Below are positions 3,697 through 13,363 of a DNA stretch of 47,990 bases, piece after piece. The translations under genes and the position numbers were made by a program. The notes below the pieces were generated by a model, which did no database searches, was not told the DNA's origin, and was given only the letters and a program-made list of their open reading frames with translations. The stretch covers positions 1 to 47,990 of the forward strand of contig NZ_JAOPXP010000055.1 in NCBI RefSeq assembly GCF_025965085.1, written 5' to 3'. This stretch comes from Marmoricola sp. (GTDB lineage Bacteria > Actinomycetota > Actinomycetes > Propionibacteriales > Nocardioidaceae). Each line of letters opens with the position of its first letter. Positions within the stretch are counted from its first letter, which is position 1.

Positions 3697-4159
3697 GACC
3701 GGCCTGCCCAGTCGACGCCGGGCCGGCCCATGGTCTCCGGACGCCTCACCACGGGGTAGCAGGCACAGGGCGGCCCCGGCGACGTCACAATCGCAAGGAT
3801 CCCGATGCGGCGCATGTGCGGCCTCCCCGAGCGCGTGCCCAATGGTTTGCTGACCATACGAGCGGTTCCCGCACCCGGAAATAGGCTCATGAGTCCGGTC
3901 CAGACCGCGGTGCGTGGTTGGTTCCCGAACTCACCGCTTGGCGCGGGACGTCACAACGGTCCGCAATGCGAGGTCAAGCGGCAGCTCCGCTGGGAACGGG
4001 ACGCCGACATCAGACGATCGCCGTGGGCGTGGGCGTGGGCGTGGGGGTGGGCGCGCTCCCGGACCGTGCGGACCGTGCGGTCCGTGCGGTCGTTGCGCGC
4101 ACCCGAAGTACTCCACCTGATCCGTGCCGGTCGCCTTCACGGATTGGCTGGCCAGGTGA
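3697..4159. other. Intergenic stretch with two tandem-repeat tracts
   Basis: No convincing gene in these 463 bases between the AI-2E-type gene and the RND operon, both on the minus strand. It must hold the RND promoter, but no clear -10/-35 pair stands out. The main structure is a hexamer array followed directly by a nonamer array (see the repeat entry). Confidence 0.6.
4023..4097. repeat. Adjacent GTGGGC hexamer and GACCGTGCG nonamer arrays
   Basis: Positions 4023-4052 hold five GTGGGC units (the fourth reads GTGGGG). Positions 4062-4097 hold four 9-base units: GACCGTGCG twice, then GTCCGTGCG and GTCGTTGCG. Both unit sizes are multiples of three, so length changes would keep frame in the minus-strand open frame here, but no known protein is recognisable in it. 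Non-coding slippage repeat is the simplest reading. Confidence 0.85.
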
Positions 4160-5317
4160 TCATCCGGCCGCGTCGGACCGCCCGGTTGCGACCGCGTCGG
4201 ACGCGGAGTCTGCTGGTGTTCGGTCCTCTCCGACCGTGGGCCGGCCCTTGGGTCGCCCGCGGCGGTGGTCCCAGAGGTCGCGGGCGATGACCTGGATCAT
4301 GCTGGCCACCGGGATGGCCAGGAAAGCGCCGAGAATGCCGGCAAGCTCGGCGGCCACCAGCACGGCGATCAGCACCGTGAGTGGGTTGAGCTTCACGGTG
4401 CGGGACAGGATCACCGGCTGGAGCAGGTGGTTCTCCACCTGCTGGTAGACGACGAAGAAGATCGCAACCGTGATCAGCGCCGGCAGTGAGTGGATCGCCG
4501 CGGCGATCAGGGCCACCGTGGCGCCGAGCGTCGCGCCCACGAGGGGGATCAGGTCGGCGACCGCCACGAACAACGCGATGAGTCCCGCGAAGGGCACTCC
4601 GGTGGCCAGCAGCACCAGGAAGGTGAGCGCCCCGGCGATCACCGAGATCAACAAGTTGCCCGAGAGGTAGCCCGTGACGGACCTGGCGCAGTCGGCGCCC
4701 ACAGCCCGCACGCGTGCCCGGGTCGTGGTGTCGTCCAGGAGGTTGAGGCTTCCCTGGACCACCTTCGGGCCCTCCAGCACCATCAGGTAGGCCAGCACGA
4801 AGATCGTGACCGCCCCCGCGACACCGGAGACCACACTTCGCAGCACGCCCGTCAACGGTGTCGTCAGGCCCTTGGCGAAGCTGCTGACCTGGCTCTGGTG
4901 CTGTTGCAGATAGGTCAGGACGTGCGTGCGCTGGAGAAAGTGACCCACGGGGCCCCTGCCGGCGCGCGCGTCGGCGAGGATGTGCGGCAACTGCCCGGCG
5001 AACGCCGTCGCCTGCTGTGCCAGCGGCACCGTGAACTCGGCGATCAGCGCGACGATCACCAGCACCACGAGGACGAACACGAGCAGGGTGGCGAGCGCTC
5101 GCCGGCCTCTCGTGACGCGACGTTCCACCCACCCCACCACGGGATACAGCGCCACTGCGAAGAACACCGCCACGACGATCCAGACGGCGACTCGGCTGAC
5201 CTGACGCAGTACCAGCAGCGCCAGCACCGTGCCCAGGACCATGGCGATGGTCGCGGCAATGGTGCGGACCGGCACCGGCTGCCGAGTGCTCACGTCGTTC
5301 TGCATGGCTGGAGACAT
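4160..5317 (-). CDS. AI-2E family transporter (TerC/YdiK/PerM-type membrane protein)
   Basis: 385 residues from the chosen ATG; the open frame extends 40 codons further but that part is Arg/Pro-rich. Layout is typical of AI-2E/PerM proteins: two N-terminal TM segments, a third at about 80-105, a less hydrophobic central region, then a bundle of five C-terminal TM segments containing the G-Y-L-S-G-N-L and D-L-I-P-L-V-G-A motifs. Family members export small molecules or act as Na+/H+ antiporters; autoinducer export is shown for few. The tail is hydrophilic (Arg/Asp/Ala). A second ATG four codons downstream is possible. Neither has a strong ribosome binding site, so the start is uncertain. Confidence 0.88.
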   Translation of the reverse strand: MSPAMQNDVSTRQPVPVRTIAATIAMVLGTVLALLVLRQVSRVAVWIVVAVFFAVALYPVVGWVERRVTRGRRALATLLVFVLVVLVIVALIAEFTVPLAQQATAFAGQLPHILADARAGRGPVGHFLQRTHVLTYLQQHQSQVSSFAKGLTTPLTGVLRSVVSGVAGAVTIFVLAYLMVLEGPKVVQGSLNLLDDTTTRARVRAVGADCARSVTGYLSGNLLISVIAGALTFLVLLATGVPFAGLIALFVAVADLIPLVGATLGATVALIAAAIHSLPALITVAIFFVVYQQVENHLLQPVILSRTVKLNPLTVLIAVLVAAELAGILGAFLAIPVASMIQVIARDLWDHRRGRPKGRPTVGEDRTPADSASDAVATGRSDAAG

Positions 5318-5598
5318 GCCTGCACGTACCCGAACCGACGGTCGTAAAAGCGCGTGCGGACGACGCGGGCGGGGTGATGCCTTCTCCGCGAGGCCCGCCG
5401 GCGACCTTGCCGGGCTCCGCTCGTCCGAGTGGTTCACCCCAGGACGTGGGCCGGCGGATGCCGGACGGCCCCGACGACGCGTTGGCCTCCGTCTTCGGCG
5501 CAGGTCTGCTGCAGGACCTGGTCGAGGCGCGATGGGAGGAGCGTCCGGTTGCCGAGCGCGGAATCAGGCCGACCGCCCGTCACCCGTGTCCGCCGTAC

Positions 5599-5614
5599 TA
5601 ACGTGTCACCCGTG
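5599..5614 (+). promoter_or_regulatory. Putative leaderless promoter of the TetR gene
   Basis: TAACGT (5599-5604) fits a TANNNT -10 box. Its end lies seven bases before the GTG at 5612, so the predicted transcription start falls on or next to the start codon. No Shine-Dalgarno sequence precedes this GTG. Confidence 0.4.
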
Positions 5615-6232
5615 AGCAGCGCTGGCGCCGAGGGTGCCCCCGGCCCCAGCGCCTCGGCACCCGATTTTCGCCGGCGGCTGCTCGACGGGATGGCCGCGGC
5701 GCTGCGGGAACGCGGTTACCGCGAGACCACCATCGCCGATGTGGTCCGCCAGGCGCGGACGTCGCGGCGCACGTTCTACGAGCACTTCTCCGGGAAGCAG
5801 GACTGCTTCGTCGCGCTGCTTCGGGAGACCAACGCGGACACCATCGAACGCATCAGGAGCGCAGTCGAGCCATCGGCTCCGTGGCCGACGCAGGTGCGTC
5901 AGGCGATCGAGAGCTGGATCGCAACCGTCGTGCTCGACCCGACCATCACGCTCAGCTGGATCCGTGACGTTCCCGCGCTCGGCGACGAGGCCCGACAGCT
6001 CCAGCGCGACACGATGGAGGACTTCGTCGTGCTGCTCCAGACGCTCACCGACACGCATGACCTGTCGAGCGTCGGGGTCCGGCCGCCGTCGCACGGGCTG
6101 GCGATCATCCTTCTCGGCGGGCTGCGCGAGCTCATTGCGACCACCGTCGAGGACGACGGGGACCCGGCGGCCATCGTCGAGCTCGCCGTCGAGACTGCGA
6201 CGGTCGTGCTCGGCCCCCGCGGCGCCGCGTAG
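5612..6232 (+). CDS. TetR/AcrR family transcriptional regulator
   Basis: 206 residues. The N-terminal helix-turn-helix runs at about 20-65, with the family signature R-G-Y-R-E-T-T-I-A-D-V-V followed by T-S-R-R-T-F-Y-E-H-F, then a K-Q-D-C-F-V-A-L-L linker and an alpha-helical ligand-binding domain. The frame is open 61 codons further upstream but that part looks non-coding. GTG 5612 was chosen because a -10-like TAACGT places transcription start at this codon; GTG 5603 is the alternative. It is convergent with the ferredoxin gene (17 bases between stops). A plausible regulator of the P450 and monooxygenase operons, but no GGTAC-N6-GTACC site precedes it, so that link is inference. Confidence 0.9.
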   Translation: MSSAGAEGAPGPSASAPDFRRRLLDGMAAALRERGYRETTIADVVRQARTSRRTFYEHFSGKQDCFVALLRETNADTIERIRSAVEPSAPWPTQVRQAIESWIATVVLDPTITLSWIRDVPALGDEARQLQRDTMEDFVVLLQTLTDTHDLSSVGVRPPSHGLAIILLGGLRELIATTVEDDGDPAAIVELAVETATVVLGPRGAA

Positions 6233-6249: not shown

Positions 6250-6453
6250 TCAGCCCTCGAGGAGGCGAAGCGCACCGGTCGGACAGCTGGCCACGGCGTC
6301 CTCGACGTCCTCGTGGAGCTGGCCGGCGGGCGCCGACCGGTCCGGCTCCCGCACGACCATGGTGTGGTGGTCATTGACCTCGAAGACCGACGGCGCGATG
6401 GACTCGCACACGCCGAGGGCGGCGCACCGTGTGCGGTCGACCTCGATCCTCAT
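6250..6453 (-). CDS. Ferredoxin, [3Fe-4S]/[4Fe-4S] type, P450 partner
   Basis: 67 residues, the usual length for P450-associated actinobacterial ferredoxins. Cys10, Cys16 and Cys57 form a C-x5-C...C-P pattern. Ala11 replaces the second Cys of a C-x2-C-x2-C motif, which favours a [3Fe-4S] cluster. The ATG overlaps the P450 stop as ATGA, so the two are made together. Role: single-electron transfer from a ferredoxin reductase to the P450. No dedicated reductase gene lies beside it; the reductase domains of the desaturase fusion 5 kb away are a conceivable but unproven donor. Confidence 0.92.
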   Translation of the reverse strand: MRIEVDRTRCAALGVCESIAPSVFEVNDHHTMVVREPDRSAPAGQLHEDVEDAVASCPTGALRLLEG

Positions 6454-7793
6454 GCCGAGACCACGGCGGGGGCGGTGGACGCGGGCGAGTCCCCGGTGGC
6501 GCGCCGCCGGACCACGGCGAGACCCTTTCGGCCCGGCGCGATCGCGATGCCCCGGGAGTGCCAGCTCTCGTCGGGTTGGTCGGTCGGGAGCAGCGTGAAG
6601 TCGCGGAGCAGGGTCCGCAGGACGACGTCGAGCTCCATGGTCGCGAACGCGGCGCCGATGCAGCGTCGTACGCCGCCACCGAACGGTATCCAGCCGTAGG
6701 TGTCCGGACGGGCGCCCACGAACCGGTCCGGGTCGAAGGTCGCGGCGTTCTCGAACAGTTCTTCGTCGGCGTGCATGAGCGCGATGCTGACCAGCACGGT
6801 CTGTCCGCGTGGCAGGCTCCACCGCCCCAGCGTCAGTGACTCGGCGCGCACCTGCCGCGCCGTGAGGTCGATGACGGGTCGGACGCGCTGCACCTCGATC
6901 AGCGCGGCCTGCCGGAGCTCCGAGCCGCCGGCGTCGACCTCCTCGACCAGGCGGCGCAGCACGTCGGGGTGGCGGCGCAGACGTTCCACGGTCCAGGCCA
7001 GCGTCGTGGCCGTGGTCTCGTGGCCGGCGCTGAGCATGGTCAGGAGCTGGTCGGCGACGTCGCTGCGGCTCATGGCCGTCCCGTCGTCGTACGTCGCCTG
7101 CAGCATCATCGACAACACGTCCTGCCGCCCGTCGAGATCAGGGTCGCGGAGGGCCTGGTCGATGAGGCGGTCGACGATCGCGTCGTACCGGGCACGCTGG
7201 GCCTCGAAACGCTTCCACGGGGCATATCGCCCGGGAAGGTTGCGCGGGACGGGCACCACCGCGAGCCTGCTGCCGAGCGTCACCATCCCGGGCAACAGGC
7301 GACGCAGCTCGTCGAGCTCGGCGCCGTCGGCTCCGAAGACCGTGCGCAGGATCGCGTTGAGGGTGATCCGCATCATCGAGTCCATCGTCGGGAACTCGCG
7401 CACCTCGGGCCAGGTGGCCATCTCCAGCACCGCCTCCCGCTCGATGAGCTCCTCGTAGACCTTCAACCGGCGGCCGTGGAAGGGCGGGGTCAGCAGCTTG
7501 CGCTGCCGGCGGTGCTCCTGTCCCTCCAGGGCGAACATCGACCCGGGGCCGAGCACCGACCCGAGGTTGGCGTCGATCGTGTCGGCCAGCTCGGGGCTCG
7601 TCTGGAAGAGCTGCTTGACCTCGCGAGGGTCGCTGAGCACCAGCGTCCTGCCGAACACCGGCATCTGCACCATGAAGGCGGACCCGTAGCGCCCACGCAG
7701 CCGCCGCATCGTGCGGTTCCGGTCGAGGAGGAGCTGCGCCGACTGCAGCAGGCGCGGGGTGGTCGGGCCCTCGGGCAAGGTCACGGTGCTCAC
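6450..7793 (-). CDS. Cytochrome P450
   Basis: 447 residues from GTG 7793. I-helix motif A-G-H-E-T-T at about 256-261, K-helix E-x-x-R (E-V-Q-R) near 300, and the haem-binding loop F-G-G-G-V-R-R-C-I-G with Cys378 as axial ligand. Soluble bacterial class I P450, expected to hydroxylate a hydrophobic substrate using NAD(P)H through reductase and ferredoxin. The frame continues 38 codons upstream, but that part covers the operator palindromes; a GAGAGG box about eight bases before GTG 7793 supports that start. First gene of a two-gene operon with the ferredoxin. Substrate unknown. The neighbouring monooxygenase, hydrolase and dehydrogenase suggest a catabolic or lipid-modifying route. Confidence 0.93.
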   Translation of the reverse strand: MSTVTLPEGPTTPRLLQSAQLLLDRNRTMRRLRGRYGSAFMVQMPVFGRTLVLSDPREVKQLFQTSPELADTIDANLGSVLGPGSMFALEGQEHRRQRKLLTPPFHGRRLKVYEELIEREAVLEMATWPEVREFPTMDSMMRITLNAILRTVFGADGAELDELRRLLPGMVTLGSRLAVVPVPRNLPGRYAPWKRFEAQRARYDAIVDRLIDQALRDPDLDGRQDVLSMMLQATYDDGTAMSRSDVADQLLTMLSAGHETTATTLAWTVERLRRHPDVLRRLVEEVDAGGSELRQAALIEVQRVRPVIDLTARQVRAESLTLGRWSLPRGQTVLVSIALMHADEELFENAATFDPDRFVGARPDTYGWIPFGGGVRRCIGAAFATMELDVVLRTLLRDFTLLPTDQPDESWHSRGIAIAPGRKGLAVVRRRATGDSPASTAPAVVSA

Positions 7794-7808: not shown

Positions 7809-7850
7809 CGGTACATCTACGTACCGAGGGGACGGTACGCATGCGTACCG
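7809..7850. promoter_or_regulatory. Two CGGTAC-N6-GTACCG operators upstream of the P450 gene
   Basis: Site 1 is CGGTAC/GTACCG at 7809-7826; site 2 is the same at 7833-7850, and with its flanking bases forms a perfect 20-base palindrome (7832-7851). Arms and spacer length are identical; centres are 24 bases apart, a little over two helical turns. Site 1 begins 15 bases upstream of the P450 start. Dimeric helix-turn-helix repressor sites are the likely reading. Confidence 0.7.
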
Positions 7851-7901
7851 TGACGGCGCAAGGGGTCGGGTCGAACGTCGGCACACCCGGGCATGATGGT
7901 T

Positions 7902-7950
7902 CGTCACGATGTGACGCGCGTCTCACTGGCGTCGGGACCGTCGAGGTCCC
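7902..7950. promoter_or_regulatory. Two further inverted repeats in the divergent promoter
   Basis: CGTCAC-N3-GTGACG at 7902-7916 and GGGACC-N5-GGTCCC at 7934-7950, each with perfect six-base arms. They lie between the GGTAC-type operators and may bind other regulators or be chance palindromes in GC-rich DNA. Confidence 0.4.
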
Positions 7951-7954
7951 ATGC

Positions 7955-7972
7955 TGGTACCCCGTCGTACCA
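7955..7972. promoter_or_regulatory. Third GGTAC-N6-GTACC operator, before the monooxygenase gene
   Basis: TGGTAC-N6-GTACCA has the same core and spacing as the two P450-side sites. It ends 13 bases before the ATG at 7986 and directly precedes the ribosome binding site, so a bound protein would block transcription of the monooxygenase operon. Confidence 0.65.
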
Positions 7973-7985
7973 CCAGGGAGAGCCG

Positions 7986-9500
7986 ATGACTCAGACACCC
8001 AGCCCGACCGAGCACGTCGACGTCCTCGTCGTAGGCGCCGGCATCTCCGGGATCGGAGTCGGGCGCTACCTGAGGACCGAGCACCCCAAGAAGAGCTTCG
8101 CGATCCTCGAGGCGCGTGGCGCCTCCGGCGGGACGTGGGACCTCTTCCGCTACCCGGGCATCCGCAGCGACTCGGACCTGCACACCTTCGGGTACGAGTT
8201 CAAGCCGTGGCGAGACCGCGAGTCGATCGCAGCCGCGCCCCGCATCCTCGGCTACCTCCGTGAGGCGGCGACGGAGAGCGGGTTGGACCCGCACATCCGG
8301 TACCACCACCGTGTCGTGTCCGCGGCGTGGTCGACCGAGGACGCCCGATGGCTGGTGGAGGTGGAGCGGACCGACACGGGGGAGCGCCTGCAGCTCACGG
8401 CGGGCTGGGTCTTCGCTGCCTCCGGCTATTACCGGTACGACGAGGGACACACCCCGCACTTCGAAGGGCGCGAGCGGTTCCGGGGCCAGATCGTGCATCC
8501 CCAGCAGTGGCCAGAGGACCTCGACCACAGCGGCAAACGCGTGGTGGTCATCGGTAGCGGCGCCACCGGTGTCACGCTCGTCCCTGCGATGGCCGCGACC
8601 GCCGCACATGTGACGATGCTGCAGCGGACGCCGAGCTACATCCTGCCGGTGCCGACGGAGGACGCGATCGCCAACCTGATGAAGCGAGTGCTCGGCGAGC
8701 AGCGCGCCTACCCGCTCATCCGACGCAAGAACATCGCCCAGCAGCGGGCGATCTGGCGGTTCTGCCAGAAGTTCCCCCGGGCCGCACGGAAGCTCATCCG
8801 GGCCGTCAACGTCAAGCAGCTCCCCGAGGGGTTCCCGGTCGACGAGCACTTCAACCCGCCGTACGACCCCTGGGACCAGCGCCTGTGCGTCGTCCCGGAC
8901 GGCGACCTCTTCCGGTCGATCCGCAACGGGCAGGCGTCGGTGGTGACCGACCGGATCACCACGTTCACCGAGACGGGCCTCCTGCTGGAATCCGGCCAGG
9001 AGCTCGAGGCCGACATCGTCGTCACGGCGACCGGGCTGACCCTGCAGCTGTTCGGCGGGATCGAGCTCACGGTGGACGGCCGCCCCGTCTCGGCGCCGGA
9101 CACCGTGGTCTATCGCGGCATGATGCTCAGCGGCGTTCCGAACTTCGCCCTGGCGATCGGCTACACCAACTCGTCCTGGACGCTCAAGGTCGGGCTGCTC
9201 TGCGAGTACTTCTGCCGCCTGCTCGCGCACATGGAGGTCCACGGGTACGACACGGCCTGGGCGGTCGCGGACCCGGAGATGCCGCGGCGGCCCCTGCTGG
9301 ACTTCGGCGCCGGCTACGTGCAGCGCTCCCTCGACCAGCTGGTCAAGCAGGGCCAGGAAGCGCCCTGGCTGATGTCGATGAACTTCCACGACGATCGCAA
9401 GCTGCTCCGCGGCGGTGATGTCGCCGACGAGCACCTGCACTTCTCCTCGCCGGCCACCCGTCGCGCGGCCTACGACCAGCAGGCGCAGGTCGCCGGATGA
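7986..9500 (+). CDS. Flavin-containing monooxygenase, Baeyer-Villiger/MymA-EthA-like
   Basis: 504 residues. FAD-binding G-A-G-I-S-G near residues 13-18, the Baeyer-Villiger/FMO fingerprint F-x-G-x3-H-x3-W (F-R-G-Q-I-V-H-P-Q-Q-W) near 160-171, and the NADP-binding G-S-G-A-T-G near 184. Type I flavin monooxygenases of this class insert oxygen next to ketones or oxidise heteroatoms using NADPH and O2. The ATG at 7986 has a good AGGGAG box; the frame is open 31 codons upstream across the operators, which I exclude. The stop overlaps the next ATG (ATGA). The order monooxygenase, alpha/beta hydrolase, SDR matches the start of the mycobacterial mymA-lipR-sadH operon. Substrate not determinable. Confidence 0.9.
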   Translation: MTQTPSPTEHVDVLVVGAGISGIGVGRYLRTEHPKKSFAILEARGASGGTWDLFRYPGIRSDSDLHTFGYEFKPWRDRESIAAAPRILGYLREAATESGLDPHIRYHHRVVSAAWSTEDARWLVEVERTDTGERLQLTAGWVFAASGYYRYDEGHTPHFEGRERFRGQIVHPQQWPEDLDHSGKRVVVIGSGATGVTLVPAMAATAAHVTMLQRTPSYILPVPTEDAIANLMKRVLGEQRAYPLIRRKNIAQQRAIWRFCQKFPRAARKLIRAVNVKQLPEGFPVDEHFNPPYDPWDQRLCVVPDGDLFRSIRNGQASVVTDRITTFTETGLLLESGQELEADIVVTATGLTLQLFGGIELTVDGRPVSAPDTVVYRGMMLSGVPNFALAIGYTNSSWTLKVGLLCEYFCRLLAHMEVHGYDTAWAVADPEMPRRPLLDFGAGYVQRSLDQLVKQGQEAPWLMSMNFHDDRKLLRGGDVADEHLHFSSPATRRAAYDQQAQVAG

Positions 9501-10408
9501 GCGCGGACCGCTTCGCCGACCTTCCCGACGGCATCCGGCTGTGCCACCGCACGCGCGGCGAGAGCGACGGCGTACCGCTCGTCCTCGTCTCCGGGCTGGC
9601 GTGCGACCTCACCTGGTGGCCCGAGGCGCTGCTCGACGGCCTCGCGGACCGTGGCTTCCGCGTCGTGCACTTCGACAACCGGGACTGCGGCCGGTCCACC
9701 ACCGTCGATGCCACGCCCCCGAGCACGTGGCGGCAGCTGCTCGCCAGGCCTCGCTCCGACGCCTACACGCTCGCCGACATGGCCGAGGACACCGTGGGCC
9801 TGATGGACCACCTTGGCATCGAGCAGGCGCACCTGGTCGGTGGCTCGATGGGCGGCATGATCGCGCAGACGGTCGCCGCCACCCACCCGCAGCGGGTCAG
9901 GACACTCACCTCGATGCTCTCGACCACGGGTGCCACGAAGATCGGTCAACCGGCCCGGTCGACGCTGTGGAAGCTGCTCAAGCCGCCTGCCGGAACCAGG
10001 CAGGAGTCAGTGGCGCGCCACCTCGCCATGGTGCGCCACCTGGCCGGCACCGCGTTCCCGGTCGACGAGGCGACCGAGACGGCTCTGGCCGAAGGGGTCT
10101 GGGACCGAGCCGGGGGCGATGAAGCGGGACCGCGCAACGCACGTCAGATCCAGGCCATCCAGGCATCCGGCGACCGGACCGCGCAGCTGCGCCGGATCAC
10201 GGCCCCGACTCTGGTCGTCCACGGTGACCGCGACCTCATCGTCCATCCCAGCGGAGGGCGGGCCACCGCCCAGGCCATCCCGGGCGCCCGCCACGTCACC
10301 GTGCCGGGCATGGGCCACCACTTTGCCGCGGGCGCCGTCCCGCACCTCGTCGACCTCATCACCCAGCACACCCAGCACGCCAGTGCAGAGCAAGGAGCGC
10401 AGTCATGA
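9497..10408 (+). CDS. Alpha/beta-fold hydrolase (esterase/lipase)
   Basis: 303 residues. Nucleophile elbow G-G-S-M-G-G (Ser near 117), oxyanion region V-S-G-L-A-C near 34-39, acid in V-H-G-D-R-D-L-I-V-H near 240-248 and catalytic His in G-M-G-H-H near 270: the full triad is present. The ATG overlaps the monooxygenase stop and its own stop overlaps the SDR start, so it is the middle gene of a coupled operon. A hydrolase after a Baeyer-Villiger-type enzyme commonly opens the ester or lactone just formed, which is the likely role. A general alpha/beta hydrolase on acylated substrates remains possible. Confidence 0.9.
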   Translation: MSADRFADLPDGIRLCHRTRGESDGVPLVLVSGLACDLTWWPEALLDGLADRGFRVVHFDNRDCGRSTTVDATPPSTWRQLLARPRSDAYTLADMAEDTVGLMDHLGIEQAHLVGGSMGGMIAQTVAATHPQRVRTLTSMLSTTGATKIGQPARSTLWKLLKPPAGTRQESVARHLAMVRHLAGTAFPVDEATETALAEGVWDRAGGDEAGPRNARQIQAIQASGDRTAQLRRITAPTLVVHGDRDLIVHPSGGRATAQAIPGARHVTVPGMGHHFAAGAVPHLVDLITQHTQHASAEQGAQS

Positions 10409-11244
10409 CCCAGGTCCGCGACAAGGTCGCCGTCGTCACCGGAGCAGGATCCGGCATCGGCCGGGCCCTGGCCGTCGAGCTGAGCCGGAGGGGCGCCCGT
10501 GTGTCCGGGTGCGACGTCGACGAGGTCGGCCTGAAGGAGACCGCGGCCCTCTGCGCCGGCGACATGCACCAGGCCCTGGTCGACGTCGGTGACCGGGAGG
10601 CAGTGTTCGCCTACGCCACCGAGGTCGAGGACCACTTCGGCGCGGTGCACCAGGTGTACAACAACGCCGGCGTCGCCTTCAGTCGAACGGTGCTGGACAG
10701 TGAGTGGGCCGACTACGAGCGGGTCCTGAGCGTCAACCTGTACGGCGTCATCCACGGCACGCAGGCCTTCCTCCCGCGTCTGATCGCCTCCGGCGACGGC
10801 CACGTCGTGAACATCTCCAGCCTCAACGGCTACCTGGCCCAGCCGAAGATGTCGCACTACTGCACGTCGAAGTTCGCCGTGCGCGGCTTCACCGAGACGC
10901 TGCGCACGGAGATGGCCCTGGAGAACCTGCCGGTGCGGGTCAGCGTCGTGCATCCCGGCGGGATCGCCACCAGCATCGCGGACAACTCCCTCGCGCACGC
11001 GCTGGCTGCCGGCCTCCCGGTGACGCCCGAAGACGAGGCGCGCCGCGACACGTACAACAAGGAGATGCTCCGCATGGCCCCGCAGAAGGCGGCGCAGATC
11101 ATCGTCGACGGCGTCGAGAGGAACCGGTTCCGGATCCGCGTCGGGCAGGACGCGGTGATGGTCGACCGCATCGTCCGGCTGCTCCCGACGGCCTCTGGCC
11201 GGCTGGCCACCGCCCTCGAGCGCAGGATGCTGAAGAAGCGCTGA
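10405..11244 (+). CDS. Short-chain dehydrogenase/reductase (SDR), SadH-like
   Basis: 279 residues. NAD(P)-binding T-G-A-G-S-G-I-G at about 13-20, N-N-A-G near 88-91, catalytic Ser in N-I-S-S-L-N-G near 138 and Y-C-T-S-K (Tyr/Lys 152/156). A classical SDR with an extended C-terminus of about 50 residues. The ATG overlaps the hydrolase stop. It probably oxidises an alcohol to a ketone or aldehyde, or the reverse, in the same pathway; supplying the ketone to the monooxygenase is the simplest scheme. It resembles the SadH protein of the mymA operon in position and size. Confidence 0.92.
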   Translation: MTQVRDKVAVVTGAGSGIGRALAVELSRRGARVSGCDVDEVGLKETAALCAGDMHQALVDVGDREAVFAYATEVEDHFGAVHQVYNNAGVAFSRTVLDSEWADYERVLSVNLYGVIHGTQAFLPRLIASGDGHVVNISSLNGYLAQPKMSHYCTSKFAVRGFTETLRTEMALENLPVRVSVVHPGGIATSIADNSLAHALAAGLPVTPEDEARRDTYNKEMLRMAPQKAAQIIVDGVERNRFRIRVGQDAVMVDRIVRLLPTASGRLATALERRMLKKR

Positions 11245-11288: not shown

Positions 11289-11328
11289 TTGACGCGCCAG
11301 CACTTTACAAACAGACTCTCGTTGTAAA
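11289..11328 (+). promoter_or_regulatory. Promoter with TTTACAA-N11-TTGTAAA operator
   Basis: TTGACG at 11289-11294 is a good -35 box; a 17-base spacer gives a weak -10 (CAGACT, 11312-11317). The inverted repeat TTTACAA (11304-11310) / TTGTAAA (11322-11328) straddles that -10. Arm sequence and spacing are typical of TetR-family operators controlling fatty-acid or alkane oxidation genes in actinobacteria. Different from the GGTAC-type sites, so probably a different repressor. Confidence 0.6.
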
Positions 11329-11371
11329 CCGCGGCGTCCGGATGGTCGCTGCCCTGCACATGGGAGCACCG

Positions 11372-13363
11372 ATGACGGCACCGACGGTCCAACGCCCACC
11401 GGCCGAGGCCAGACAACCGGTCCAAGGTCTGCCCGACCCGGGCGAGCAGGTGCCCGGGCTGGCGTGGCCCACGGCCGCCCTCTTCGTGGGCACGCTCGCG
11501 CTGTTCGCGCTGGAGACCTGGGCCGTGCTGGTGGTGCAGAGCCCGCCGTGGCTGACCGTCCCCATGGGGGCGGCCGTGACGTTCCTGATGTTCTCGGTCC
11601 TCCACGAGGCCACGCACCACGCCATCAGCACGCACACCCGCGTCAACAACGCCTTCGGGCACCTGTCACAGCCCTTCGTGGCGGTGTACACCACGTTCCC
11701 GCTGATGCAGTTCATCCACATCGAGCACCACCGCAACACCAACGAGCCCAAGGCCAGCGACCCCGATGCCTGGACCAGTGAAGGTCCGTGGTGGCAGCTG
11801 CCGTTCAGGTGGGCGACGATCGACGTCTGGTACATGGCCTTCTACCTGAGGCGCGTCAACCAGCGGCCGCGGGCCGAGGTCGTCACCACTCTCGGGACGT
11901 TCGCGGCCGTGGCGGCCGCGTTCGGTGCGGTGATCGCCAGCGGCCACCTCTACGAGCTGGTCGTCCTGTACGTCGTGCCGCAGCGAATCGGTCTCACGGT
12001 GCTGGCGTGGTGGTTCGACTACCTCCCGCACCACGGGCTCACCGCGACCCAGCGGCAGGACAAGTACCGGGCGACCCGCGTCCGGGTGGGTGGCGAAGCC
12101 TGGCTGACGCCGCTGTTCGTCTACCAGAACTACCACCTGGTGCACCACCTGCACCCGAGCGTGCCGTTCTACCGCTACGTGCGCGCGTGGCGCCGCAACG
12201 AGCAGGCCTACCTCGATCGCAACGCGGCCATCTCCACCTGGTTCGGCCGTTCCCTGACGCCGAGCGAGTACCGCACCTGGCGACGACTCACCGACCAGTT
12301 GCCCGTCCCGACCGCCTCGGGGCGCCGGCCGGCCTTCCACCCGCTGCGCGTCGCCTCGGTCGAGTCGCTCACCGAGGACAGCGTCGTGGTCTCCTTCGCC
12401 GTGCCGGCCGACCTCGCGGACCAGTACCGCTACGTGGCCGGCCAGCACCTGACGCTGCGCGCCGTGATCGACGGCCAGGACGTACGACGCAGTTACTCGC
12501 TGTGCGCCCCCGCGTCGACCGGTCAGCTGCGGGTGGCGGTCAAGCGGGTTCAGGGTGGCCTCTTCTCCGGATACGTCAACGAGCAGGTCCGCGTCGGCGA
12601 CATCCTCGACGTGATGACGCCGACGGGCCGGTTCGGGACCGTGCTGGAGGACGGCACGAAGCGGTCGTACGTCGGCGTGGTCGCCGGCTCGGGCATCACG
12701 CCGGTCCTCTCCATCCTGGCCACCGCCCTCGAGGTCGAGCAGCGCAGCACCTTCGACCTCGTCTACGGCAACCGGAGCGCGGCCACGACCATGTTCAGGG
12801 ACGAGCTCGAGGACCTGGTCTCCCGGTTCGGCGAGCGCCTGCGTGTCCACCACGTGCTGTCCCGCGAGCCGGGTGGGCTGACGGGTCGGATCGACGGGAG
12901 CATGGTGAACACCCTTCTGGCCGACCGTCACACGTCGGTGGACGCCTGGTTCCTGTGTGGTCCCCAGGCGATGGTCGAGGATGTGACCGCAGGGCTGGTC
13001 GAGGCAGGAGTGGGCCACGAGCGCGTGCACAGCGAGCTCTTCCACAGCGTGGCCGCGCCCGTGAGCGAGGTCAGCAGCGACCTGGTCAGCCAGGTGAGCG
13101 TGACCGTTGACGGGGAGGAGACCTCCTTCGAGCTCCGTGCGTCCGGGGAGACCGTGCTCGACGCCGCGCTGTCGGCCGGCGTCGACGCGCCGTACTCCTG
13201 CGCCGGGGGTGCCTGCGGCACCTGCCGAGCCAAGGTCGTCCTGGGCACGGCGACCATGGACCAGAACCACGCCCTCGACGACGCCGAGGTGGCCGAGGGG
13301 TACGTGCTGACCTGCCAGGCGCATCCCACCAGCGAAGCGGTGCGCCTCCAGTACGACGACTGA
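11372..13363 (+). CDS. Fatty acid desaturase/hydroxylase fused to ferredoxin reductase and [2Fe-2S] ferredoxin
   Basis: 663 residues, three parts. (1) Membrane di-iron desaturase/hydroxylase domain with histidine clusters H-E-A-T-H-H (78-83), H-I-E-H-H (116-120) and H-L-V-H-H (255-259), plus TM segments at about 30-75 and 175-225. (2) FAD/NAD(P)H reductase domain at about 320-560 with R-S-Y-S-L and G-S-G-I-T-P. (3) Plant-type [2Fe-2S] domain at about 575-663 with C-A-G-G-A-C-G-T-C plus a downstream Cys. It carries its own electron chain, so it should oxidise a lipid or hydrocarbon using only NAD(P)H and O2. ATG 11372 was chosen for its GGGAG box; ATG 11342 is in frame. Confidence 0.9.
   Translation: MTAPTVQRPPAEARQPVQGLPDPGEQVPGLAWPTAALFVGTLALFALETWAVLVVQSPPWLTVPMGAAVTFLMFSVLHEATHHAISTHTRVNNAFGHLSQPFVAVYTTFPLMQFIHIEHHRNTNEPKASDPDAWTSEGPWWQLPFRWATIDVWYMAFYLRRVNQRPRAEVVTTLGTFAAVAAAFGAVIASGHLYELVVLYVVPQRIGLTVLAWWFDYLPHHGLTATQRQDKYRATRVRVGGEAWLTPLFVYQNYHLVHHLHPSVPFYRYVRAWRRNEQAYLDRNAAISTWFGRSLTPSEYRTWRRLTDQLPVPTASGRRPAFHPLRVASVESLTEDSVVVSFAVPADLADQYRYVAGQHLTLRAVIDGQDVRRSYSLCAPASTGQLRVAVKRVQGGLFSGYVNEQVRVGDILDVMTPTGRFGTVLEDGTKRSYVGVVAGSGITPVLSILATALEVEQRSTFDLVYGNRSAATTMFRDELEDLVSRFGERLRVHHVLSREPGGLTGRIDGSMVNTLLADRHTSVDAWFLCGPQAMVEDVTAGLVEAGVGHERVHSELFHSVAAPVSEVSSDLVSQVSVTVDGEETSFELRASGETVLDAALSAGVDAPYSCAGGACGTCRAKVVLGTATMDQNHALDDAEVAEGYVLTCQAHPTSEAVRLQYDD

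Follow-up and report, generated by a model that had tools for sequence, protein, structure and literature searches.

Three matching palindromes in the divergent promoter of a P450 and a monooxygenase operon of Marmoricola sp., probable operators of the neighbouring TetR-family regulator

Between two divergent operons of Marmoricola sp. lie three palindromes with nearly identical arms, and the question raised by this locus is which protein would bind them and to what effect. The window, which is the whole stretch of DNA analysed here (47,990 nucleotides), carries them at the following positions:

7809 to 7826, no strand: candidate operator site 1 (P450-proximal), CGGTAC-N6-GTACCG, score 22.3
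7832 to 7851, no strand: candidate operator site 2 (P450-distal), perfect 20-bp palindrome ACGGTACGCATGCGTACCGT, score 24.3
7955 to 7972, no strand: candidate operator site 3, putative in its role, TGGTAC-N6-GTACCA, score 18.4

The first-pass annotation had described two sites with identical CGGTAC/GTACCG arms, 24 bases apart, on the P450 side and one with TGGTAC/GTACCA arms on the monooxygenase side, and both the positions and the letters were borne out. The core of site 1 (7810-7825) reads GGTAC ATCTAC GTACC and lies 16 bp from the P450 start codon (GTG, 7793, minus strand); that of site 2 (7834-7849) reads GGTAC GCATGC GTACC, 24 bp from site 1 when measured start to start. Site 3 (core 7956-7971, GGTAC CCCGTC GTACC) is found 14 bp before the monooxygenase start codon (ATG, 7986). 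A different inverted repeat, GGGACC-N5-GGTCCC, was noticed directly before site 3, at 7934-7950 of the same promoter region.

Our search of the 3.55 Mb own genome, an assembly of 243 contigs that is 95.9% complete and from which something may be missing, revealed that the three sites of the window are its only perfect GGTAC-N6-GTACC matches, with 0 for a reversed-pattern control. When up to one mismatch was allowed in the window, 3 matches were obtained against 0.48 expected, a number reached in 1 of 100 shuffles. These figures agree with the annotation's view that three like sites in one promoter are not chance, and they complete the genome-wide search that it had proposed. With one mismatch, 52 places were found in the own genome against 40 for the reversed-pattern control, and no clear further sites stood out among them; a wider regulon in this genome is thus unsupported. 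The weight of the evidence is in the clustering and the conservation of the sites and not in any single one, and a chance palindrome or a simple repeat is rejected on the genome-wide rarity together with the locus conservation and the pair-first genome scan described below.

The genes concerned are the following:

5612 to 6232, plus strand: TetR-family regulator, proposed binder; PF00440 5.7e-12 (for the longer open reading frame), the start codon being a choice
6250 to 6453, minus strand: 67-aa ferredoxin-like protein; its start overlaps the P450 stop; three cysteines
6450 to 7793, minus strand: cytochrome P450; PF00067 8.1e-59; heme motif FGGGVRRCIG
7986 to 9500, plus strand: Baeyer-Villiger-type flavin monooxygenase (BVMO); PF00743 4.2e-15; FRGQIVHPQQWP
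9497 to 10408, plus strand: alpha/beta hydrolase; PF00561 2.9e-33; GGSMG
10405 to 11244, plus strand: short-chain dehydrogenase (SDR); PF00106 1.2e-47; YCTSK

Overlapping stop and start codons join BVMO, hydrolase and SDR on the plus strand, and catalytic motifs were found in the enzymes of the cluster. Type I Baeyer-Villiger monooxygenases are marked by FxGxxxHxxxW(P/D) and two Rossmann motifs, and the BVMO contains all three (FRGQIVHPQQWP, GAGISG and GSGATG); its nearest solved relatives include steroid and phenylacetone monooxygenases, and those of the P450 are CYP51 and CYP120 entries. The 67-aa protein, which we take to be a ferredoxin from its cysteine pattern and location, had no match in NCBIfam and is not common to related clusters, just 2 of 103 other loci having a match.

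The regulator is convergent to the P450 operon and points at it from the other side. Its N-terminal DNA-binding domain scored 45.7 bits against a PF00440 cut-off of 24, and an alternative, longer reading frame is open from 5429. The structural model (pLDDT 91.2) is all-helical and matched TetR proteins best, with TM-scores of up to 0.77 among the matches listed; FadR, EthR and others were nearest, at 16-22% identity among the 50 matches listed, and BkaR and FasR were also found. The best fold match, FadR of Bacillus (3whc chain F, E 1.7e-06), is likewise of the TetR type, yet it is only 18% identical and has different targets. A lipid-like ligand is hinted at by these fold matches. In none of the 11 NCBIfam families listed did the protein exceed the curated cut-off, the best being the ScbR type with 35.6 against 150 bits. 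Among 98 relatives searched, own genome included, three further TetR proteins proved clearly close (46-54%); the best of 10 plasmid records reached 35.5%, and the window protein was not firmly placed in a tree of 96 TetR rows.

A profile of the window protein and its three close relatives was then used to find related loci, and of 426 the best 80 were kept; the ranking followed the protein match, and the operator played no part in it. The palindrome was present in 78 of these 80, with 154 sites in all, although the loci are not independent, since 39 of the 96 tree rows belong to one Nocardia group and 13 to one Amycolatopsis group. By title 19 named genera are represented among the 80, 18 of them with sites; the two loci lacking a perfect site are L116, with a partial P450 match, and L127, in which no P450 was found. 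Other spacer lengths between 0 and 15 yielded 0 to 17 matches each in the same loci, and 14 of the 17 matches at spacer 11 were half-sites next to true pairs. No palindrome was found in 38 control loci (125 kb), of which 26 surround TetR relatives of 24-32% identity and 12 surround one-mismatch places of the own genome. The loci of the three close relatives carry two sites (L046), one (L047) and none (L048). A palindromic operator for this TetR is thus indicated by conservation alone, and the nearby TetR, which the annotation had left open as regulator, can be named as the candidate from the locus comparison. Both conditions that would have counted against the annotation's reading thus turned out in favour of it, the sites being conserved in related loci and a candidate regulator being at hand. 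An extra overlapping half-site, GGTACGGTAC, was seen beside the pair, around 6920, in L081, L083, L087 and other Amycolatopsis loci.

A search that began from the pattern led to the same set of genes. Pairs of sites were present in 5 of the 341 genomes scanned from the window's family and in 19 of 394 from its class, the own genome being counted in both, and reversed pairs occurred in 0 and 2 genomes, respectively. Among 21 distinct other pair-bearing genomes, 19 had a homologue of tetR, P450, SDR or BVMO (E up to 1e-4) in the 3 kb locus, including G114 and G332 with a weak TetR relative only (26% and 35%); no cluster homologue was near the pair in G644, a simple repeat, or in G568. At a TetR threshold of E up to 1e-20, the 394 genomes divided into 16 with pair and TetR, 3 with the pair alone (G114, G568, G644), 16 with TetR alone and 359 with neither, that is, TetR in 16 of 19 pair-bearing against 16 of 375 other genomes (Fisher 4e-17, a value that treats the genomes as unrelated). 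From 31 other TetR-positive genomes 29 loci were compared, and at least one perfect site was present in 25 of them, all except L173, L175, L177 (contig end) and L180. In 16 of the 29 (L181-L188, L190-L193, L195-L198) the pair lies between tetR and P450 with a spacing of 33 or 34 bp, not 24, which is beyond the gap limit of the scan; 10 of the 16 genomes scored as TetR alone are such cases. A spacing of 31-35 bp was found in 0 of 334 genomes of the window's family. Pairs are rare in that family (5 of 341), and horizontal arrival there is possible. Two operator pairs stood without a close cluster relative, at L170:8021-8062 (none) and L151:8046-8083 (a 26% TetR only), and other targets are possible for them.

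The consensus from 152 sites, after exclusion of two of the 154 that lie far from the cluster (L058, L111), is YGGTAC-RYNNRY-GTACCR, and a pyrimidine occupies the outer base, which was not part of the search pattern, in all 304 half-sites. Members of a pair are 24 bp apart, start to start, in 64 cases, 23 in 8, and 19 and 26 in 1 each; a median gap, over 79 of 83 loci, of 18 bp separates the nearest site from the P450 start. We then aligned the P450 promoters of 92 loci by adding to the best 80 the window, L046 and ten f7 loci that had been chosen after their P450 matches had been seen; family f7 is presumably the mycobacteria, a named Mycolicibacterium row joining an f7 row in the TetR tree. 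Only promoters in which exactly two sites fall within the 120 bp next to the P450 start were counted, which left 85 and excluded 7. The distal site ends in TACCGT in 82 of the 85 and in TACCAT in 3; in all 85 a TTG stands 10-12 bp before it, and the spacer is 17-18 bp long in 84 of them. In the proximal site the corresponding position carries the hexamer's final T in none of the 85, and this site starts 6 bp past the hexamer in 67 of 85. The window fits this anatomy, with its proximal site from 7825 and the following elements, read from sequence:

7856 to 7861, minus strand: predicted -35 of the P450 promoter, TTGCGC (7861-7856)
7832 to 7837, minus strand: predicted -10 of the P450 promoter, TACCGT (7837-7832), part of site 2

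A generic sigma-70 scan returned 0 promoters, the predicted P450 promoter of the window included. The distal operator is thus predicted to lie between -35 and -10, with the -10 included, and the proximal operator near the expected transcription start. An operator that overlaps the -10 and the start is in the usual place for repression, and this position argues for repression by blocking of the polymerase; that the regulator would repress rather than activate is what the promoter anatomy of the relatives suggests.

The relatives also differ from the window in gene order. In the stretches compared for the 80 loci, a related P450 was found in 79, a BVMO in 66, an SDR in 60, a hydrolase in 50 and all four in 48. 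In 39 of the 80 (9 without a BVMO in reach) the tetR gene is found downstream of the P450 in the same orientation, where it may be an end gene of the controlled operon; in 40 (4 without a BVMO) it is divergent from the P450, and most of these have the sites in the interval that separates tetR from the P450. The usual order is sites-P450-hydrolase-SDR-BVMO, and where related loci possess these genes, the whole set mostly stands behind one operator pair. The window differs in that the set is divided between two divergent operons, with the pair before the P450 and the third site before the BVMO, a triple arrangement not seen in the other loci examined.

These comparisons make it very probable that the three palindromes are bound by the nearby TetR. 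Against it, another regulator could bind them and the adjoining TetR be a bystander, as the annotation had also considered on the ground that this TetR has no such site before its own gene. The missing site was confirmed: the best score in about 5350-5640 was -13, where the three sites themselves reach 18.4, 22.3 and 24.3, and a degenerate operator there was rejected at the same value. Of the two explanations offered at the time, a TetR that is not autoregulated or a different binder, the comparison of related loci makes the former likelier, and the missing site is weak evidence against the TetR, because the tetR genes of the relatives are downstream or divergent and the link would have been lost in the rearranged locus. 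Six f7 genomes (G424, G551, G575, G614, G628, G683) also speak for a different binder, with a pair before a P450 or SDR gene and the close TetR elsewhere; this suggests action at a distance, and near four of these pairs are weak TetR relatives of 28-31% (L160, L162, L164, L165), so that a local regulator may act there instead. VnfA of Azotobacter is a sigma-54 activator, unrelated to TetR, with far-upstream sites. The suggested site for VnfA, GTAC-N6-GTAC (PMC7294313), is similar, and as printed it is without the outer G/C of the window operator. A different binder would nevertheless have to account for a palindrome that accompanies the TetR in 78 of 80 loci and 25 of 29 further ones, for a palindrome-first search that recovers the TetR at genome level in 16 of 19 cases, and for an own genome without a second close TetR copy, where the next relative is just 25% identical; we give it very little credence. 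That the TetR, once bound to the sites, works mainly as an activator is quite improbable: certain TetR proteins do activate, for instance FasR, which is named 'activator' in the NCBIfam family list and is among the fold matches of our model, but here the sites cover the -10 and the expected start.

The doubt that concerns site 3 alone is somewhat larger, and we still regard it as unlikely that sites 1 and 2 are real and site 3 has arisen by chance or is vestigial, with the BVMO operon not under its control. Site 3 is solitary and has the lowest score, one exceeded in 1 of 20 shuffled windows, so that a single such site is not very rare; no partner palindrome for it was found, the inverted repeat of 7934-7950 being all that turned up, and related P450 promoters carry a pair and not a triple. 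No -10 was recognisable before it, nor any BVMO promoter, the sole TA steps of 7851-7985 falling inside the site itself. Its core is, however, one of just three in the genome that match perfectly, it stands 14 bp before the start codon, beside the median of 18 bp on the P450 side of related loci, and its outer bases are conserved, the flank GTACCAC being the commonest proximal form (58 of 85). Moreover, a second split cluster, L161, has sites ahead of both halves, with one site (1976-1991) for P450-hydrolase and two (7988-8028) for SDR-BVMO. The arms in L161 are variant (GGGTAC or AGGTAC) and its TetR is diverged (35%), the recognition helix and the operator arms both differing, and protein and operator may be changing together there.

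We therefore return to the TetR of 5612-6232 as a regulator of both operons, and consider it likely, with good confidence, that the three palindromes are its operators and that it represses the P450 and BVMO operons together. The annotation's proposal of one dimeric regulator for both operons remains the best reading of the locus comparison, its dimer, its binding and the role of site 3 being deduced. A TetR dimer would sit on each palindrome; bound at the -35/-10 gap and the transcription start, it would exclude RNA polymerase from the P450-ferredoxin operon, and site 3, before the BVMO start codon, would extend the control to the BVMO-hydrolase-dehydrogenase operon. A substrate or intermediate acting as the presumed inducer would bind the TetR and release both operons. 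The P450 would then hydroxylate, the dehydrogenase make a ketone, the BVMO give an ester or lactone and the hydrolase open it, a series that is plausible from the enzyme types, with the substrate conjectural; the gene neighbourhoods of four relatives offered no clear clue to it.

A like gene set is known from M. tuberculosis, where BVMO, hydrolase and dehydrogenase adjoin in the mymA-lipR-Rv3085 operon, which is under VirS, an AraC-type regulator and not a TetR; the likeness to the BVMO operon of the window is one of description alone. KstR and BkaR have operator letters and target genes other than those of the window. As catabolic repressors of the TetR family they share with the proposed regulator the TetR fold and palindromic operators (PMC4482099). 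The same source reports, for the mycobacterial TetR Rv0135c, a highly significant palindromic motif (6.0E-80) in its divergent promoter, and Rv0136 is CYP138A1 (PMC6469627). Rv0135c is numbered next to cyp138, and f7 genomes with divergent tetR and P450 carry the window-type operator. The literature searched by operator letters and gene set described no TetR with this operator, and a TetR with these predicted operators and targets appears, on well-supported grounds, to be new among TetR repressors.

A broader proposal, which we hold to be about evenly balanced, is that one TetR family and one 18-bp operator form an undescribed catabolic regulon across many actinobacterial families, in which the operon can be split, moved or scattered, each new unit keeping or gaining the operator. 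The third site here, the split L161 cluster and the remote P450 or SDR operons of the six f7 genomes led us to it, and cyp138 may be a branch, the Rv0135c motif being the nearest literature lead. For a TetR group that had not been studied, with its operator in 18 named genera among the best 80 loci, the analysis supplies a predicted operator, predicted targets and a predicted promoter mechanism, and it links orphan P450s to a route of BVMO, hydrolase and dehydrogenase. Further members can be sought by way of the operator, and the regulator is a potential biosensor once its inducer is known.

Some minor features of the region were also recorded. Short simple repeats of GTGGGC and CGGACCGTG type units lie between genes at about 4020-4095 of the window. 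An AI-2E family transporter gene is near the cluster both in the window (4160-5437) and in L110 (724-2232), perhaps by coincidence. Beyond the SDR gene, at 11304-11328, an inverted repeat TTTACAA-N11-TTGTAAA precedes a desaturase-reductase fusion gene (11342-13363) and looks like the operator of another regulator.
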